From Bacteroidia bacterium (lineage in GTDB: Bacteria; Bacteroidota; Bacteroidia; Flavobacteriales; Flavobacteriaceae): a DNA stretch of 35,616 nucleotides. The stretch covers positions 1 to 35,616 of the forward strand of contig JAUIKV010000002.1 in the NCBI GenBank assembly GCA_030430615.1, in the 5' to 3' direction. The notes below the pieces were generated by a model. That model searched no databases, was not told where the DNA came from, and saw nothing but the letters and a program-made list of their open reading frames with translations. Numbering within the stretch: position 1 is the stretch's first letter; each line of letters starts with the position of its first letter. Both the position numbers and the translations under genes were made by a program. Below are positions 2,550 to 12,525 of this stretch, piece after piece.

Positions 2550-4553
2550 TTATTTGTATGAACGTGTTTTCAATTCGATGTCCTTGAACTCAAGTGGCTC
2601 CTTGTGCAATTTGGCCTCACTGGGCTCCCCGGTGTATTCCCAGGCTGCCACGTAGGCGTAATTCTTATCATCTCTCAGTGCCTCTCCCTCGGGTGTCTGG
2701 TACTCTTCGCGGAAATGACCTCCACACGACTCGTTTCTCTCCAGGGCATCCTTGGCAAACAATTCGCCCAATTCCAGGAAGTCGGCTACCCGGCCTGCTT
2801 TTTCAAGTTCGGGGTTCAGCTCATCCAGGGATCCCGGTACCATGACATTCTTCCAGAAGTCCTCGCGGATAGCGCGGATTTCTTCAATCGCTTCTTTGAG
2901 CTGTTTTTCATTTCTCGACATGCCGACCTTGTCCCACATGACCTTGCCCAGCTTCTTGTGAAAGTAGTCAACCGAATGGGTTCCTTTGTTGTTGATGAAG
3001 AAATCGAGTCTTTCTTTTACATTCTTTTCGACGGCTTCAAACTCCGGGCTGTCAGTAGGAATCTTACCCGTTTGTATATCATCGGACAAATAGTCCCCTA
3101 TGGTGTACGGAAGAACAAAATAGCCGTCTGCCAACCCTTGCATTAAAGCGGAGGCTCCCAGCCTGTTTGCTCCGTGATCAGAGAAATTGGCCTCACCGAT
3201 GGCATACAAACCAGGTATCGTGGTCATCAGGTTGTAGTCTACCCAGATGCCTCCCATGGTATAGTGTGTTGCCGGGTAGATCATCATCGGGGTCTTGTAC
3301 GGATTCTCAGCCTGAATTTTTTCATACATCTGGAAAAGGTTCCCGTATTTGGCCTCCACGATGGCTTCACCTAGTTCTGTGATTTGCTGTTTGCTCGGGT
3401 TCTTCATTCCCTTGATCTTAGCCTGCTCTTTTCCGTATCGCTCGATAGCGCTTGAGAAGTCCAGGTAAACTGCCTCACCAGTCGCATTGACGCCATATCC
3501 GGCATCACATCTCTCCTTAGCAGCTCTTGAGGCCACATCCCTGGGCACGAGATTGCCGAAAGCCGGATATCTTCTTTCGAGATAGTAGTCGCGGTTTTCT
3601 TCAGGAATCTCAGTAGGCTTCAGCTTGCCCTGTTGGATGGCTTTGGCATCTTCCAGGTTTTTAGGCACCCAAATTCGTCCGTCATTCCTAAGGGACTCCG
3701 ACATCAGAGTCAGTTTCGACTGGTAGTCTCCAGAGCGCGGGATGCATGTCGGGTGAATCTGGGTGAAACATGGATTCGCGAAATAGGCCCCCTGTTTGTG
3801 AACCTTCCAGGCCGCTGTCGCATTAGCCCCCATAGCCATAGTCGACAGGAAATAAACGTTGCCATAACCTCCGGTGGCAATTACCACCGCATGGGCACTG
3901 TGTCTTTCAATCTCCCCGGTAACAAGGTCGCGGGCAATAATTCCTCTGGCTTTTCCGTCAACGAGAACGACGTCGAGCATTTCGTGACGGTTGTGCATTT
4001 CAATTTTGCCACGGGCAATCTGGCGGTTCATCGCCGAATAAGCCCCCAGAAGCAGCTGTTGTCCGGTCTGTCCCTTGGCGTAAAAGGTTCGCGAGACCAG
4101 GACTCCTCCAAAGGAGCGGTTGTCAAGAAGGCCCCCATAATCGCGTGCGAAAGGAACGCCCTGTGCCACGCACTGGTCGATGATATTCACCGACACCTCA
4201 GCGAGACGATGAACATTGGCTTCGCGGGAACGATAGTCCCCTCCTTTCACTGTATCGTAAAACAGGCGATAAACCGAGTCGCCATCTCCCATGTAGTTCT
4301 TCGCCGCATTGATCCCTCCCTGAGCTGCGATGGAGTGCGCGCGACGAGGCGAATCCTGGTAACAGAATGCCTTTACGTTGTATCCCAGACCTGCCAATGT
4401 TGCAGAGGCTGAACCGCCTGCAAGACCGGTTCCTACGACAATAATGTCAATATTCCTCTTATTGGCCGGATTGACAAGGTCAATATGATCTTTATGCGAG
4501 GTCCATTTATCCTTGATCGGACCCTTAGGTACTTTAGAATCTAGTTTTGCCAT
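2550..4553 (-). CDS. sdhA: Succinate dehydrogenase/fumarate reductase flavoprotein subunit
   Basis: 667 aa; [23 protein letters not shown]-binding motif, [29 protein letters not shown]. Confidence 0.95.
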
Positions 4554-5346: not shown

Positions 5347-5916
5347 ATGTCAGATACCAAAACGCATGTGCTTGAACCGGGAAAATGGGTCGTGAGATAT
5401 GCGGATTATCTGTACAATTATGCCATCACGCGTGTCGACAACCAGGAAATCGCCAAGGACCTCGTGCAGGAGACCTTCTTGTCGGGCGTGAAAGGCAAGG
5501 ACAGTTTCAGGGGGCAGGCGGCTGAAAGAACCTGGCTGGTTTCAATCCTCAAAAGAAAGATCATCGATTACTATCGCAAGATCAATTCGGCCAAAGGGCA
5601 AAAAGAAGTCAGAATGAACTTCTATGAAGACGGGGAGCAAAAGGGAAACTGGATCGAGGAACGAGCGCCGCAATCCTGGGGCAACGAAGCGGATCAGGCC
5701 ATCGAGAACACCGAGCTCAAGGGTGCATTGGACCGTTGCATTGACAATCTTCCAGACAAATATCGCATCGTCTTCATGCTCAAAACAGTGCAACGATACG
5801 AAACAGAGGAAATCTGTAATGAACTGGGCATCACTCCGTCAAATCTTTGGGTGATCATCCATAGGGCCCGGACGCAGTTAAGGAAATGCATGGAAGAGAA
5901 TTGGTTCAAAAACTAA
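5347..5916 (+). CDS. RNA polymerase ECF-type sigma-70 family factor
   Basis: 189 aa; sigma region 2 (VDNQEIAKDLVQETFLSGVKGKDSFRG...AERTWLVSILKRKIIDYYRK) and region 4 (LPDKYRIVFMLKTVQRYETEEICNELGITPSNLWVIIHRARTQLRKCME). Confidence 0.93.
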   Translation: MSDTKTHVLEPGKWVVRYADYLYNYAITRVDNQEIAKDLVQETFLSGVKGKDSFRGQAAERTWLVSILKRKIIDYYRKINSAKGQKEVRMNFYEDGEQKGNWIEERAPQSWGNEADQAIENTELKGALDRCIDNLPDKYRIVFMLKTVQRYETEEICNELGITPSNLWVIIHRARTQLRKCMEENWFKN

Positions 5917-5920
5917 GGGA

Positions 5921-6187
5921 ATGGGAATGAAACTATCAATCAATTGTGACGAGGCGACTACGATTTGCGACAAAAGCCAATACAATGAAGCTTCTTTGTA
6001 TGACAGAATTCGTTTGTCGCTTCACCTTGCTTTGTGCAAGCACTGCAAGAAATACACCCGGCAAAACAGCCTCATGACAGATGTATACAAGCGTTTTGCC
6101 ACCCCTTGCCAGGGTTCTGACCAAATGCCCGAAGAGGAGAAAAAGGATTTGGAGGCCAAACTCCAGGAGGAACTCAACAAGAACTGA
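5921..6187 (+). CDS. Small putative zinc-finger/anti-sigma-like protein
   Basis: 88 aa, starts 4 nt after the sigma factor stop; LHLALCKHCKKY gives an HxxxCxxC motif as in ZAS anti-sigma domains; no obvious TM segment. Confidence 0.7.
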   Translation: MGMKLSINCDEATTICDKSQYNEASLYDRIRLSLHLALCKHCKKYTRQNSLMTDVYKRFATPCQGSDQMPEEEKKDLEAKLQEELNKN

Positions 6188-6211
6188 CACTTCCAAGACA
6201 GGCTTTGAATT

Positions 6212-7648
6212 ATGGAATTTATAGAAACCATAAAGCCCTTCACTTTAATAGCCTACTACATTTTTGTCAGTTTCGTGGTCTTGCTGATCATACTGGACAA
6301 CAAAAAGCCGGAAAAGGCATTTGCGTACATCTTCTTGATTCTTTTGGTCCCTGTCGCCGGTCTTGTCATTTATCTCTTATTCGGGGCACAGTACCAGAAG
6401 AAAAAGCTCTTTACAAAAAAAAGGTATTTCGACAAGGTTTATCTCAACAAGATCAACGAGGAGCAAAAAGAAGATGCTGATGTTCGCATTGACGATACCG
6501 ATGCGAAACTTCCAACTTTATTCTACAACATTGAGCAAGTAAGCTTTACACTCAACAATGAGATCACCTTGCTGAATAACGGTGAGGAAAAGTTTCCGGC
6601 TTTCATCAAGGAGCTTCAAAAGGCAAAAGAGAGCATTCACCTGGATTATTACATCATCCGGGAAAGTGACATCGCCCGACAAGTGATAGACATTTTGTGT
6701 AAAAAGTCTGAAGAGGGCCTCAAAGTGCGTGTGATCTACGATGATGTGGGAAGCTCGCTTACCCGATCTACGCTTGCTCGGATGCGCAACAGCGGCGTTG
6801 CCAGCTATCCCTACATGCCTGTAGTTTTTTCAAGGCTGGCTCATAAAGCCAACTACAGGAATCACCGCAAGATTGCCGTGATAGACAACGAAGTCGGCTT
6901 TGTCGGCGGCATCAACATCAACGACAAATACATCAACCCGAGCAAGAGTGGCCTGTATTGGAGGGATACCCATATCATGATCAAGGGAGAGGCTGTGATC
7001 GATCTTCAATATCTGTTCATCAGCGACTGGTACTTTGTAAGTGGTCAGAAGATCGAACTGGAAGAGGTTCGCTATCGAAACCTGAGCAAGATTCAGAGCA
7101 AAGTCCCGACCAGCATCCTCGGAAGTGACTACGGAAAGAACAATCAAACCATCAAGGAGGCTTTTTTCAGGATGATCACCGCTGCTCAGGAAGAAGTGTT
7201 GATCACAACCCCTTATTTCGTCCCGGATGAATCCATCATGAACGCCCTGAAGATCACAGCCAAAAGCGGGGTGAAGGTCTCCCTGATTCTTCCCGAAAAA
7301 CCCGACAGCAAAACTGCTTTTTACGCTTCGCAAACCTATTTCAAAGACCTTTTGAACAGTGGGGTGGAAATCAATTATTACACGCGGGGAATGATGCACT
7401 CGAAAATGATGATCATTGACGGTGCGGTGTCCACTGTGGGAAGCACCAATATGGATCAGCGCAGCTTCAACCTCAATGCCGAAGTCAATGCCTTCATGCT
7501 CAGCGAAAAAATAGCCCGGGACCTGAAATCGACCTTCATGAATGACCTCGAATACAGCTATCCCCTGACTGTTGAAATACTGAGGCGCAGAAAATGGTAC
7601 GTCAAGGTTATTTGCTCCATTGCCCGCCTTCTTGCGCCAATTTTGTAG
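6212..7648 (+). CDS. cls: Cardiolipin synthase (PLD family)
   Basis: 478 aa; N-terminal TM segments, two HxK motifs (NHRKIAVIDNEVGFVGGINI; MHSKMMIIDGAVSTVGSTNMDQRSF). Confidence 0.92.
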   Translation: MEFIETIKPFTLIAYYIFVSFVVLLIILDNKKPEKAFAYIFLILLVPVAGLVIYLLFGAQYQKKKLFTKKRYFDKVYLNKINEEQKEDADVRIDDTDAKLPTLFYNIEQVSFTLNNEITLLNNGEEKFPAFIKELQKAKESIHLDYYIIRESDIARQVIDILCKKSEEGLKVRVIYDDVGSSLTRSTLARMRNSGVASYPYMPVVFSRLAHKANYRNHRKIAVIDNEVGFVGGININDKYINPSKSGLYWRDTHIMIKGEAVIDLQYLFISDWYFVSGQKIELEEVRYRNLSKIQSKVPTSILGSDYGKNNQTIKEAFFRMITAAQEEVLITTPYFVPDESIMNALKITAKSGVKVSLILPEKPDSKTAFYASQTYFKDLLNSGVEINYYTRGMMHSKMMIIDGAVSTVGSTNMDQRSFNLNAEVNAFMLSEKIARDLKSTFMNDLEYSYPLTVEILRRRKWYVKVICSIARLLAPIL

Positions 7649-8298: not shown

Positions 8299-8350
8299 CT
8301 CAAAACCTTACCTTTTGAAAGGCAGTAAAAGGGTGCTGCTCACTGATTTC

Positions 8351-8373
8351 TTTTGATCATTGCTGTATCAAAA
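8351..8373. promoter_or_regulatory. Inverted repeat TTTTGAT-N9-ATCAAAA upstream of the export cassette (candidate operator)
   Basis: Sequence ttttgatcattgctgtatcaaaa: perfect 7-bp arms, 9-bp spacer, ending 7 nt before the candidate ATG at 8381. Confidence 0.35.
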
Positions 8374-8380
8374 GAAGACC

Positions 8381-9124
8381 ATGAAATCGAATCTTTACAG
8401 AGTACCTTCAGAATACAACTACGTCTGTCATCGATACACAAACAGAAATAAGAGCAGCGTATTATATCCCGTTCTGCTTATCACCGTAATAGCTTGCCTT
8501 ATTACCATGCCCTGGATTCAAATCGAATCAGTTACCACATCTCCAGGGATGATCTCTCCTCCCATTCACCCTTTTGAAGTCAAAGTGAAATCAAAAGGCA
8601 TATTGAAACTGTACCCATTTGAAGAAAATCGTTTTGTACAAAAGGGCGATACTCTCTTCTCTATCTGGATCGAAGCCCAAAGTAAAGAGGAGTTCAACAT
8701 CGCCCCCATTGATGGATACGTTCGGATGCTGAGAAATGAAATTGACAAGTCAGTTGTCGAAAGCGGTGAAATGATTCTGGAGATCCAGCCGGAACACGAA
8801 CTTGTTGTGAGATGCTATCTCTCGGGTGACGAAATTACTTCGGTCCAACCCAACCAGAATGTAGAGTTTCAGTTTCGGTCCTTTGGAAAGGAAAAAAATG
8901 GTACTCTTTCAGGAAAAGTCACCGGTATTCTACCCTCGATCAACAGAAATGATGAGAAGGCAATTTATGAGGTGAGGTGCTCGGTCGATACCCTTGAAAA
9001 AAATTTCCACGCCTATCAGTTGAAAGCAGGTATGACCCTGCTTGCCCGATTTCGGCCAGCCAGAAGGTCTGCTTTTGACATCATTTTGAAAGACGTTGAA
9101 GATAAAGATCGAAATCCATCATGA
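8381..9124 (+). CDS. HlyD-like membrane fusion/adaptor protein of a peptide exporter (short form)
   Basis: Start 8381 (MKSNLYRVPSEYNY) or 8360; single N-terminal TM (SVLYPVLLITVIACLITMPWI), lipoyl-like halves (SKGILKLYPFEENRFVQKGDTLFSI; APIDGYVRML...VVESGEMILEIQP); stop overlaps the PCAT start (ATGA). Confidence 0.82.
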   Translation: MKSNLYRVPSEYNYVCHRYTNRNKSSVLYPVLLITVIACLITMPWIQIESVTTSPGMISPPIHPFEVKVKSKGILKLYPFEENRFVQKGDTLFSIWIEAQSKEEFNIAPIDGYVRMLRNEIDKSVVESGEMILEIQPEHELVVRCYLSGDEITSVQPNQNVEFQFRSFGKEKNGTLSGKVTGILPSINRNDEKAIYEVRCSVDTLEKNFHAYQLKAGMTLLARFRPARRSAFDIILKDVEDKDRNPS

Positions 9125-11241
9125 AATCAGCTGACTCCTTCATTAAGGCAAGAAAGCTCAAAACCAGGCAGCAGGACTTCACGGATTGCGGTGCAGCATG
9201 TCTTGTTTCCGTGTGCAGGTACTACGGGTTGCATGTTTCCATCAGTCAGGTGCGGTCTATGGCCGGTACTGACCAGCAGGGCACCAGCATCATGGGCCTC
9301 CTGGAGGCTTCTAAAAAGCTCGGGTTCGACGCTCGGGGCGTTCAAGGGAATCAACAAAGTCTCTTCAAAATTCCCAAACCCGCTCTTGCCCATGTAGTGC
9401 TTAGGAACGGACGTCATCACTATGTCGTCATCTGTCAGGTAAAAAGAACATATATCAAGATCATGGACCCTGCCAACGGAAAGTTGAAACGAATGACCTG
9501 GGTAGAGTTCTCAGATATTTGGAAAGGCATTCTTTTGATCCTCTTGCCATCGGATTCCTTTGAGCCGGGAGCAAAAACCAGCCAGGTCTGGCCGTGGTTC
9601 TGGAGGCTGCTCAAACCTCATTACAGAATTCTCATTCAGGCCGTCCTGGGATCGTTACTCTATACCTTACTCGGATTCTCAACATCAGTCTTTATCCGAA
9701 ACATTACAGACAAAGTGCTGGTTTTCGGAGATTTGTGGCTATTGAAGACTATGGGGTTGGCCATGATTGTAATCCTAATCCTGCAACTCGCACTTAGTGT
9801 ATTTAAAGATGTGTTCATCATTCGAATTGGTCAGGAAATCGATGCCCGCCTGGTCCTTGGTTATCAGAATCACCTGTTTCGGCTCCCTCAACGATTCTTC
9901 GACACGATGAAAATCGGTGAAATCATCTCTAGAGTAGGAGATGCAATTAAAATTCGAATGTTTATAAGTCACACCGTGATGTCTCTGACTGTGAATGTGT
10001 TCATCGTGATACTATCCTACCTTTTGATCCTGTACTACAATTGGCAGATAGGCTTGTTCCTGATTGCAATGATCCCGATGTACTGCGCAGTTTTTCTCCT
10101 TACAGACATTTTCAACAGAAAAACCGAAAGAAGAGTGATGGAGGCGTCCGCTCAGCTTGAAAGCCATCTGGTGGAGTCTCTACAGGGCATCCGCACGCTC
10201 AAATTTTTTGGTGCGGAATCCTATGTGCTGGAGAAAACAGAAGTGAAATTCCTATCGTTACTGAGGGCCGGTTACCGCTCCTCTCTCAACCAGGTGTTCG
10301 CACAGAGCAGCTCTTTCGGTATCCAAAATCTATTTACCACCGGGCTTCTTTGGTTGGGATCCTTCTATGTACTTGATTCCCATTTGACGACCGGTGAGCT
10401 TCTGTCAGTATATGCGATTCTAGGATATCTTACCGGGCCCATTGCAGCTGTCGTCTCCTCAAATAAAAGCATTCAAAACGCTCTCATTGCTGCAGACAGG
10501 CTTTTCGAAATCACTGACCTCGATACGGACCAACCCAAAGAGGGGGTGTCTTTAAGTGAAAACGGGAGTGGAGACGTTGTTTTCGATCGAATCGACTTCC
10601 AATACAAACCCGGACTGAAAGTGCTCAACAAGTTTAGTGCAAACATCCGCGCCGGAGAGATCACCGCGATCCAAGGTGAGAGTGGGTCCGGAAAATCAAC
10701 CATTCTAAACCTTTTGCAAAGAGCATATCCCATCGACAATGGTACTATAAAGATAGGGGGCACCGATCTGAGATATATCAACGACGCAAGTCTCAGAAAA
10801 GTGATTTCAGCTGTTCCTCAAAACATTGAATTGTTCTCGGGTACCATTGCAGAAAATATTGCTTTGGGCGATTCCAGCATGGACCTGAAAAGAGTTTTGG
10901 AAATCATAAATCTCCTGGAAATGGAGGATTTTATCGAAAACCTCGAACACGGCTGTCACACTCTGATCGGTGAGAGCGGGGTCAGTCTTTCCGGCGGCCA
11001 AAGACAACGCATCGCTATTGCGCGGGCCCTTTATCGAAAACCCCAAATCCTTTTGCTCGACGAACCCACCTCTTCTTTGGATGGGCAATCCGAGAAGTCA
11101 ATGATTCGCGCTATTGAAAGTTTGAAAAGAGAAGGAAAAACCGTCATTATCGTCTCTCATCGAAGGAGCACTCTCGCAAAGGCAGATCGCATTTTAGTCA
11201 TGGAAAAAGGAAAGATATCTCAAGAACAAAAAGCAATTTAA
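9121..11241 (+). CDS. Peptidase-containing ABC transporter (PCAT; C39 peptidase - TM - NBD), double-glycine peptide processing and export
   Basis: 706 aa; C39 domain QQDFTDCGAACLVSVCRYYGL, RHHYVVI, IMDPANG; Walker A GESGSGKST, signature LSGGQRQR, Walker B ILLLDEPTSSLD. Confidence 0.96.
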   Translation: MKSADSFIKARKLKTRQQDFTDCGAACLVSVCRYYGLHVSISQVRSMAGTDQQGTSIMGLLEASKKLGFDARGVQGNQQSLFKIPKPALAHVVLRNGRHHYVVICQVKRTYIKIMDPANGKLKRMTWVEFSDIWKGILLILLPSDSFEPGAKTSQVWPWFWRLLKPHYRILIQAVLGSLLYTLLGFSTSVFIRNITDKVLVFGDLWLLKTMGLAMIVILILQLALSVFKDVFIIRIGQEIDARLVLGYQNHLFRLPQRFFDTMKIGEIISRVGDAIKIRMFISHTVMSLTVNVFIVILSYLLILYYNWQIGLFLIAMIPMYCAVFLLTDIFNRKTERRVMEASAQLESHLVESLQGIRTLKFFGAESYVLEKTEVKFLSLLRAGYRSSLNQVFAQSSSFGIQNLFTTGLLWLGSFYVLDSHLTTGELLSVYAILGYLTGPIAAVVSSNKSIQNALIAADRLFEITDLDTDQPKEGVSLSENGSGDVVFDRIDFQYKPGLKVLNKFSANIRAGEITAIQGESGSGKSTILNLLQRAYPIDNGTIKIGGTDLRYINDASLRKVISAVPQNIELFSGTIAENIALGDSSMDLKRVLEIINLLEMEDFIENLEHGCHTLIGESGVSLSGGQRQRIAIARALYRKPQILLLDEPTSSLDGQSEKSMIRAIESLKREGKTVIIVSHRRSTLAKADRILVMEKGKISQEQKAI

Positions 11242-11254
11242 TCGTATCACACGC

Positions 11255-11611
11255 ATGAATACCTTGAAACAAATCGAACAACTCCGAAAATTGCACGGCA
11301 TGATCAAACTTGAGTCTACAGGAAGCCCTAAAATGATGGCGAAAAAGATGCATGTCAGCGAAAGACAGCTCTACAATCTGATCGATCAACTTCGAACGAT
11401 GGACGCTCCAATTCGCTTCAACAGGCGTGCAAACACCTACTTCTACGCGCATGATTTTGAACTCCTGGTGAATATTTCGGTTAAGATAATCCAAGGGGAT
11501 CAGGTTCTTCAAATCTACGCAGGAGAAAATCAATACTCAATTTTTAGCTCCCTGCAAGGTTCGTGCAGCAACGAAAACTATCTTGGCCATGTCATGACAG
11601 CTGTAAGTTAA
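11255..11611 (+). CDS. Small helix-turn-helix protein, putative regulator of the peptide cassette
   Basis: 118 aa; GSPKMMAKKMHVSERQLYNLIDQLRTMDAPIRFNRRANTYFY resembles an HTH_11/WYL-type N-terminal wHTH; co-directional, 13 nt after PCAT. Confidence 0.75.
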   Translation: MNTLKQIEQLRKLHGMIKLESTGSPKMMAKKMHVSERQLYNLIDQLRTMDAPIRFNRRANTYFYAHDFELLVNISVKIIQGDQVLQIYAGENQYSIFSSLQGSCSNENYLGHVMTAVS

Positions 11612-11644
11612 ACCCGATCTTTTTTAGATCATAAATCTGCAACT

Positions 11645-11821
11645 ATGAAACAAACGCAATTATTGAAAATGAGAGAACTCAACAGAAATGAACTTTTGGA
11701 AATCAGAGGTGGCAACCCAATCTTGGTCGGATTGGGTGTGCTCACCACCCTGATCAGCCTGGGAAAGGCGGCAGATCAGGTTGGCCAATGGTTCGTGCAA
11801 GGGTGGAACAACCCAAAATAA
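11645..11821 (+). CDS. Double-glycine leader peptide precursor 1 (58 aa; bacteriocin/signal-type)
   Basis: Not in the ORF track (below size cutoff). MKQTQLLKMRELNRNELLEIRGG|NPILVGLGVLTTLISLGKAADQVGQWFVQGWNNPK; LNRNELLEIRGG is a canonical GG leader; next to a C39 PCAT. Confidence 0.85.
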   Translation: MKQTQLLKMRELNRNELLEIRGGNPILVGLGVLTTLISLGKAADQVGQWFVQGWNNPK

Positions 11822-11834
11822 AAAAGCGAAAAAG

Positions 11835-12011
11835 ATGAAAATGGATGTATTGAATAGAAACGACCTTATTGCCCTGTCTCAATCAGAGCTGTTCGAGATA
11901 ACAGGAGGTGGAGGTCCAATAAGCGAAGCTCTCGAATGGTATTACAAGACAATGGGAAGCTTTTACAGGGGTTTGTGGGATGGACTCACAGGAGCCGATC
12001 CAAAACTTTGA
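11835..12011 (+). CDS. Double-glycine leader peptide precursor 2 (58 aa; bacteriocin/signal-type)
   Basis: MKMDVLNRNDLIALSQSELFEITGG|GGPISEALEWYYKTMGSFYRGLWDGLTGADPKL; the listed ORF start 11781 lies inside precursor 1, so the real start is most likely 11835 (or 11841). Confidence 0.85.
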   Translation: MKMDVLNRNDLIALSQSELFEITGGGGPISEALEWYYKTMGSFYRGLWDGLTGADPKL

Positions 12012-12016
12012 AGACA

Positions 12017-12262
12017 ATGAAAATAATAAACTCAAAGATCTGGATCTATCTTTTTTTGCTGGTAGGTATTGGGAATTTTTTAATGATGATCGATACGCTT
12101 TTGTCCTCTGGAGATCAGGCGTTTTCAATTTTCTCGATTCCAACAAACAAATGGACGAATGTCGCCTTTTTTGCCACTATTGCTTTCTTCCTGATCTATT
12201 CAGGAGTCTATCAGAACAAGAAAATGAACGAAAAAACACAAAACGAAGATGCTACTGACTGA
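12017..12262 (+). CDS. Small two-TM membrane protein, candidate immunity protein
   Basis: 81 aa from ATG 12017: MKIINSKIWIYLFLLVGIGNFLMMIDTLLSSGDQAFSIFSIPTNKWTNVAFFATIAFFLIYSGVYQNKKMNEKTQNEDATD; starts 5 nt after precursor 2 and overlaps precursor 3. Confidence 0.65.
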   Translation: MKIINSKIWIYLFLLVGIGNFLMMIDTLLSSGDQAFSIFSIPTNKWTNVAFFATIAFFLIYSGVYQNKKMNEKTQNEDATD

Positions 12263-12425
12263 AAACTTAGGCTTGCGCTCGCTCGAGCAGGACAAACTCA
12301 TTCGAATTACTGGAGGGGCGGAACCTGCGGAAGGTTCTTATGCGGCTGGCTATGCCATTGGCAGGTGGTTCAACCAAATGTTCCAAATTTGGCACTATGG
12401 ATTGACGCATTTGAACGACCGATGA
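12249..12425 (+). CDS. Double-glycine leader peptide precursor 3 (58 aa; bacteriocin/signal-type)
   Basis: Not in the ORF track. MLLTENLGLRSLEQDKLIRITGG|AEPAEGSYAAGYAIGRWFNQMFQIWHYGLTHLNDR; GG leader; overlaps the upstream ORF by 14 nt. Confidence 0.83.
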   Translation: MLLTENLGLRSLEQDKLIRITGGAEPAEGSYAAGYAIGRWFNQMFQIWHYGLTHLNDR

Positions 12426-12437
12426 GGTTCCAAAAAT

Positions 12438-12467
12438 CTGCCGGGTTGAATTTGGCCCGGCAGTTTT
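12438..12467 (+). terminator. Rho-independent-like terminator ending the peptide cassette
   Basis: CTGCCGGG-ttgaatttgg-CCCGGCAG followed by TTTT, just after precursor 3. Confidence 0.65.
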
Positions 12468-12525
12468 CGATAAATGTTTGCCGATCTAGGGATTCCTTTT
12501 AACGAATGGACCCTTTTAAAATGTG

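Follow-up and report, generated by a model that had tools for sequence, protein, structure and literature searches.

What could a Gram-negative bacterium gain from three small double-glycine (GG) peptides that are encoded together with an exporter, and by what route would these leave the cell? The question is raised by a seven-gene operon at positions 8348-12463 of the window, i.e., the whole stretch of 35,616 nucleotides that was analysed, which comes from a Bacteroidia bacterium of the Flavobacteriaceae (assembly GCA_030430615.1, contig JAUIKV010000002.1). All of its genes run in one direction, in the order adaptor, peptidase-containing ABC transporter (PCAT), winged helix-turn-helix (HTH) protein, GG1, GG2, an 81-aa membrane protein and GG3, followed by a terminator. 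The answer favoured here, with a probability of about 0.58, is a resident operon that exports several unmodified peptides as a class IIb-like antibacterial, to which the 81-aa protein would make the producer immune. The C39 peptidase domain of the PCAT would bind the leaders of GG1, GG2 and GG3 and cut behind the double glycine, and the PCAT, together with the short HlyD-type adaptor, would export cores of about 35, 33 and 35 residues. These cores would most likely serve as a class IIb-like antibacterial made up of several peptides, from which the 81-aa membrane protein would shield the producer, and the winged-HTH protein would most probably regulate the operon.

Gene content and age of the operon

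The features of the operon are as follows:

8348..8376, no strand: inverted repeat TTCTTTTGAT-N9-ATCAAAAGAA, a possible operator, with arms at 8348-8357 and 8367-8376 that are complementary at 10/10 positions
8381..9124, + strand: HlyD-family adaptor, 247 aa (HlyD_3, E 9.5e-14; alignment with full-length relatives)
9121..11241, + strand: PCAT with C39 peptidase, ABC membrane domain and ATPase, 706 aa (Pfam domains, motifs)
11255..11611, + strand: winged-HTH protein (HTH_11-like), 118 aa, putative regulator (HTH_11 matches of its relatives; AlphaFold2, AF2)
11483..11524, + strand: HTH residues 77-90 (KIIQGDQVLQIYAG), the position of the leader-like motif, degenerate here (Q at -8, AG for GG)
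11525..11608, + strand: C-terminal tail of the HTH protein, 28 aa, with the motif LQGxCS...YL
11616..11630, no strand: small inverted repeat GATCT-TTTTT-AGATC between the HTH and GG1 genes, also present in L098 (alignment)
11645..11821, + strand: GG1 precursor, 58 aa, predicted core of 35 aa at 11714-11818
11835..12011, + strand: GG2 precursor, 58 aa, predicted core of 33 aa at 11910-12008, or shorter; GxxxG conserved
12017..12262, + strand: small membrane protein, 81 aa, candidate immunity protein
12249..12425, + strand: GG3 precursor, 58 aa, predicted core of 35 aa at 12318-12422, the most conserved core of the genus
12438..12463, + strand: intrinsic-terminator-like hairpin with a T run

Related loci were gathered by a pattern scan of GTDB genomes based on the PCAT alignment, which found HlyD-PCAT-HTH-GG cassettes in many Bacteroidota genera, the nearest named relatives being Flavobacteriaceae. 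An earlier note on this DNA had described a double-glycine peptide operon with a C39 PCAT in a member of this phylum, which these results bear out. In L098, a metagenome-assembled genome of the Flavobacteriaceae, the PCAT is 85% identical to that of the window and all seven genes are present. Within the genus of the window, GG3 occurs in 10 of 22 genomes, the window's own included, and in five of the six good ones. Nine loci were read besides the window (L222 is the L098 locus, L230 is the L070 locus and L223 matches L132), and all seven genes are found in identical order in seven of them (L222, L223, L224, L226, L227, L228 and L230), so that homologous GG-leader reading frames do lie beside related PCATs, a check that the note had proposed. 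In L229, a scaffold gap adjoins a partial set made up of GG1, GG2, the 81-aa gene and GG3; L166, which is also cut by a gap and seems to come from the same genome, holds the HlyD, PCAT and HTH genes.

The gene tyrS adjoins the cassette or its remnant in 9/9 loci, and the other flank, where it is held, is an O-methyltransferase (OMT) gene or lies a few kilobases from one. Given that this site is the same throughout the genus, the cassette is a resident there and no recent arrival; the synteny and a G+C content like that of the surroundings rule out a recent horizontal insertion, and the note's wording, "inserted among housekeeping genes", is therefore misleading. In the PCAT tree, the exporters of the tyrS locus fall outside a 100/100 clade that holds all of the other-locus exporters of the PCAT group, and a single origin of the tyrS-locus exporters is possible on this tree but not shown by it. 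The contig L104 bears the label Algicola, which the tree labels place in the Pseudoalteromonadaceae, and encodes a PCAT almost the same as the one of Allomuricauda (L105); its label may be mistaken or a homonym.

The cores of the precursors are under strong purifying selection and the leaders much less so, given that the nonsynonymous divergence (pN) between the window and L098 is 0.03-0.06 in the cores and 0.15-0.26 in the leaders. The ratio of nonsynonymous to synonymous divergence (pN/pS) between the same two loci is 0.22 for GG1, 0.26 for GG2 and 0.17 for GG3; the 81-aa gene has a ratio of 0.14 and the HTH gene one of 0.28. That the small genes are real follows from their synteny in the genus and the selection on the cores, which together rule out chance reading frames. 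A decaying relic would be suggested by L225, where GG3 alone lies between OMT and tyrS (5963-6139) and whose genome, G578, yielded no C39 domain; that lone gene may be a relic, the user of another exporter or the product of an incomplete assembly. For the window, decay is highly improbable, since every one of its genes has an open reading frame and is subject to purifying selection, and the full set is kept in seven other genomes.

Exporter, adaptor and leaders

The domains Peptidase_C39, ABC_membrane, ABC_tran and HlyD_3 all score above their Pfam cut-offs. The C39 catalytic residues Q17/C23/H100/D116 are intact, as are the Walker motif (GESGSGKST) and LSGGQ of the ATPase, in agreement with what had been read before. 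No C39 domain other than that of this PCAT was found in the assembly, whose completeness is 84%. The best NCBIfam model of the PCAT is TIGR01193, which represents one curated PCAT subfamily rather than the whole class and is matched below its curated cut-off (461.6 vs 523.85 bits). The closest solved peptide exporters, which share its domain order, are PCAT1 (PDB 4RY2) and ComA (PDB 8HF4), both from Gram-positive bacteria, of which ComA is a pheromone carrier.

C39 domains read the leader consensus L-12/E-8/L-7/GG (PMC6363468), with recognition at positions -15/-12/-7/-4 and a requirement for the GG motif in both binding and cleavage (PMC7018657). The leaders of GG1, GG2 and GG3 come close to this consensus, with Leu-12, Glu-8, Leu-7, a hydrophobic residue at -4 and Gly-Gly, and the PCAT is accordingly predicted, from these sequences, to cleave the three precursors and export their cores. 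The core lengths of 35, 33 and 35 aa that had been proposed earlier are predicted again, with the reservation that the exact cut in GG2 is ambiguous because of a GGGG run.

The same earlier account had called the cassette complete, which goes too far, given that no outer-membrane channel gene lies within the cassette and that the adaptor lacks its coiled-coil hairpin. The alignment with full-length relatives shows that the lipoyl halves are present and that the TolC-contacting hairpin is absent; complete adaptors have about 380-390 residues in related cassettes and 377-392 in sister species. In the window and L222 (2539-), the hairpin alone has been lost from between the lipoyl halves (247-261 aa), whereas L227 (9184-9858), L230 (6485-7123) and L166 have lost both the hairpin and the lipoyl halves (212-224 aa), and the L224 adaptor (2963-3493, 176 aa) consists only of a membrane helix and a barrel. 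The adaptors of L223, L226 and L228 are complete, and the hairpin has apparently been lost more than once within the genus. In a separate locus, L171, a reading frame resembling a TolC-type outer-membrane protein (5495-6832) lies directly upstream from the adaptor, and the window cassette has none.

In HlyD-type adaptors, it is the hairpin that touches the outer-membrane channel, and therefore either another contact exists or the peptides stop in the periplasm. Under the second option, the peptides would go no farther than the periplasm or envelope of the cell that makes them and would act on, or build, something in that cell, true secretion having been given up. A hairpin-less adaptor, which would be unable to bridge to an outer-membrane channel, the lack of the hairpin also in L222, L227, L230, L166 and L224 and the strong conservation of the cores would all fit such a use. 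On the other hand, members of the genus with a full-length adaptor have the same peptides, so that the job of the peptides needs no such loss, and hairpin-free adaptors could meet a TolC-like partner in some other way, which leaves delivery to the envelope improbable.

Use of the peptides

The case for an antibacterial use begins with the likeness to the class IIb operons of Gram-positive bacteria (the lactococcin G / enterocin 1071 and lactobin A / cerein 7B families), which likewise have GG leaders, neighbouring small peptides with no modification enzyme, a small membrane protein beside the precursors and a PCAT with an HlyD-like accessory protein. The window has adjacent GG-leader peptides with a dedicated PCAT and no modification enzyme among the cassette genes, and for this last reason the cores, all three of which are free of cysteine, are probably unmodified. 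Further points in common are weak profile matches, such as that of GG1 to the lactococcin G-beta model (E 0.023), and the GxxxG motif, which is conserved in GG2 (G[LI][WY]DG) and GG3 (GYA[IV]G) and absent from GG1, although short glycine-rich cores also yield GxxxG by chance. The peptides of related cassettes match class IIb models, one of them, in L140, above the cut-off (TIGR03949, 31.4 vs 21.5), and those of other related cassettes score near the lactococcin G alpha and beta models. The window differs from the class IIb operons in its Gram-negative Bacteroidota host, its three conserved peptides rather than two, its near-neutral cores, a winged-HTH protein in place of a kinase/regulator pair and scores under the curated cut-offs; it is on account of these scores that it is called class IIb-like here and is not filed as a member.

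The class II microcins of Enterobacterales are likewise GG peptides of Gram-negative bacteria, exported by a PCAT with an HlyD-type adaptor, but their peptides are unmatched here, and the window has the winged-HTH gene in its operon and a hairpin-less adaptor. The bacteroidetocins (PMC6671954) are GG-leader peptides with a C39 PCAT in Bacteroidota; the peptide contains two or more cysteines, and their regions also encode a five-transmembrane protein and, usually, a thiol oxidoreductase. Membership of this group is ruled out for the window, with no cysteine in any core and neither a five-transmembrane protein nor an oxidoreductase in the cassette.

A different use of the same three cores would be as signals, either a pheromone or a density cue, which would act on a conserved receptor whose gene lies elsewhere, with the output tuned by the HTH protein. 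This possibility draws on the mean identities to the window across the genus (taken from the per-locus table, with L222 excluded), which are about 75% for the GG3 core and about 71% for the GG2 core, compared with about 51% for the PCAT and 40% for the 81-aa protein, as well as on the stable inheritance at a single site; the corresponding means are about 60% for the GG1 core, 48% for the HTH protein and 32% for the adaptor. Even so, neither a peptide importer nor a histidine kinase or response regulator was seen among the translations of the cassette, and no sensor kinase or response regulator of the ComAB/BlpAB type beside the exporter, either in the cassette or in the flanking reading frames of the window. 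Three unlike peptides also exceed what a signal needs. An antimicrobial use is favoured over a quorum-type one given that the peptides of the relatives match class IIb models and that both a histidine kinase and a response regulator are missing from the cassette; signalling is considered rather unlikely.

Several observations count against an antibacterial use. The window peptides fall below every curated bacteriocin cut-off, and indeed exceed that of no curated family, in the Pfam and NCBIfam profile searches, and the predicted cores carry almost no net charge (about +1, -1 and -1, by our own count), unlike most bacteriocins, which are cationic. The cassette keeps to a single site, which many bacteriocin loci do not, and, with the hairpin missing, it is uncertain whether the peptides would be exported through the outer membrane. 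Finally, the 81-aa protein is conserved in place and is a plausible immunity protein, but its identity of about 40% across the genus, compared with some 71-75% for the GG2 and GG3 cores, would not be expected of a tightly matched immunity pair. No plasmid-borne copies of the 81-aa protein were found.

Other GG precursors were seen in the same set of loci. Arrays of six or seven of them lie beside one PCAT in L106 (4974-7866), L109 (5188-7601) and L111 (4920-6760), with near-identical leaders of the MKNLENYGVQELNATEMNEINGG type and diverse glycine-rich cores. Short reading frames with WIKGGEVGA or WLKGGEVGA in L080 (5682-5837) and L082 (569-715), near HTH genes that have no full PCAT nearby, possibly represent another family of GG-type peptides.

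The regulator, its tail and the meaning of the locus

The HTH_11 domain is matched by 51 of 66 relatives of the HTH protein at E<0.01, the window member on its own being below the cut-off, and AF2 predicts the winged helix at pLDDT >90. In place of a C-terminal effector domain such as WYL, there are a short tail and a beta hairpin that is predicted weakly. A sequence search for solved relatives of the family found none, and the matches of a fold search were confined to generic winged helices (best E 0.013).

What most sets this family apart, and what the note had overlooked, is its leader-like C-terminal segment, which, in cassette HTH proteins across Bacteroidota, fits the GG-leader consensus (hydrophobic residues at -12/-7/-4, Glu-8 and GG). 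Related proteins were gathered both at PCAT loci and outside them, and in most of these the chain closes with a segment such as ELDATEIRSVSGG, NNEVTEIFGG or LKPQELMNINAG and, behind it, a short tail of 0-40 residues. When scored with a 14-column matrix that was built, leaving out HTH proteins, from 172 distinct GG leaders, most PCAT-linked HTH proteins have their best match at one site, near residue 90, and roughly half to two thirds of these proteins exceed the 99.9% point of 20,000 random 110-residue stretches from other proteins. With the two glycines removed (12 columns), 11 of 20 representatives with <50% identity outscore all 877 GG dipeptides from large proteins of the same loci. As HTH proteins share descent, these tail statistics are not independent.

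GG or AG stands at the site in 52/60 PCAT-linked HTH proteins vs 7/15 unlinked ones, some of which also have GG (p = 0.002, confounded by kinship). At the level of genomes, HTH genes are enriched where a C39 gene is present (20/29 vs 45/172, p = 1.7e-5), and the association of an intact [GA]G tail with a C39 gene is not significant (15/20 vs 3/7, p = 0.18). In the AF2 model, the motif region is a weak beta hairpin (pLDDT about 54-70), unlike C39-bound leaders, which adopt a helix (PMC6363468).

Among the members of the window's genus, drift has turned the GG of this site into AG or SG, so that it reads IYAG (IYSG in L228), and a conserved QGxCS...YL motif comes after it. The window protein retains hydrophobic residues at -15, -12, -7 and -4, with Gln in place of Glu-8; it is indistinguishable from the background by the full matrix and weakly separable by the 12-column one (p 0.03). 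A cleavable leader is unsupported for the window's own HTH protein, given its AG, its Q at -8 and a full score inside the null. As GG is needed for binding and cleavage (PMC7018657), cutting of the tail is unlikely in this genus and docking unproven, and the AG/SG drift might allow docking without cleavage.

Judging by the family's sequences, the tail of the regulator may dock on, or be cut by, the C39 domain of the exporter. One tentative scheme, which is possible but doubtful, makes the HTH protein a GG-leader-bearing C39 client that an idle exporter would hold or cut, with the precursors competing for the groove, so that transcription would read the occupancy of the exporter. The nearest comparison is with the long-leader precursors of the nitrile-hydratase family (PMC6363468), which are cut by a C39 domain and have a long leader before GG, as the HTH-GG proteins would have; the latter differ in that a DNA-binding winged helix comes first and a short, variable stretch follows the GG. 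No regulator with such a tail was found in the small sample of the literature searched.

The DNA itself offers candidate control sites. The operator-like repeat, which had been noticed before, ends 4 nt from the adaptor ATG and is kept in L098 with one mismatch in the 3' arm and a loop longer by one base; as a family-wide site it is unsupported, given that the cassettes of other genera have different repeats or none. The repeat at 11616-11630, with its T-rich loop, could be an attenuator or a second operator. The hairpin with a T run that had been reported at the end of the cassette is present, and hairpins 3' of GG3 also occur in L098, L132 and L070, each with another stem sequence. The listed reading frames likewise exist and are co-directional, with the overlaps as they had been given, i.e., ATGA joining the adaptor and PCAT genes and 14 nt shared by the 81-aa and GG3 genes.

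Operons that export GG peptides are already known in Gram-negative bacteria; what look new are the tail of the regulator and the hairpin-less adaptor, whose loss of the hairpin raises the question of the route that such peptides take out of a Gram-negative cell. The many double-glycine cassettes of Bacteroidota are mostly unnamed by the curated profile libraries searched, and the genus offers a set of three conserved cores that are open to synthesis and testing. If the tail of the regulator is a real ligand of the C39 domain, it would provide a new way of coupling transporter load to transcription.

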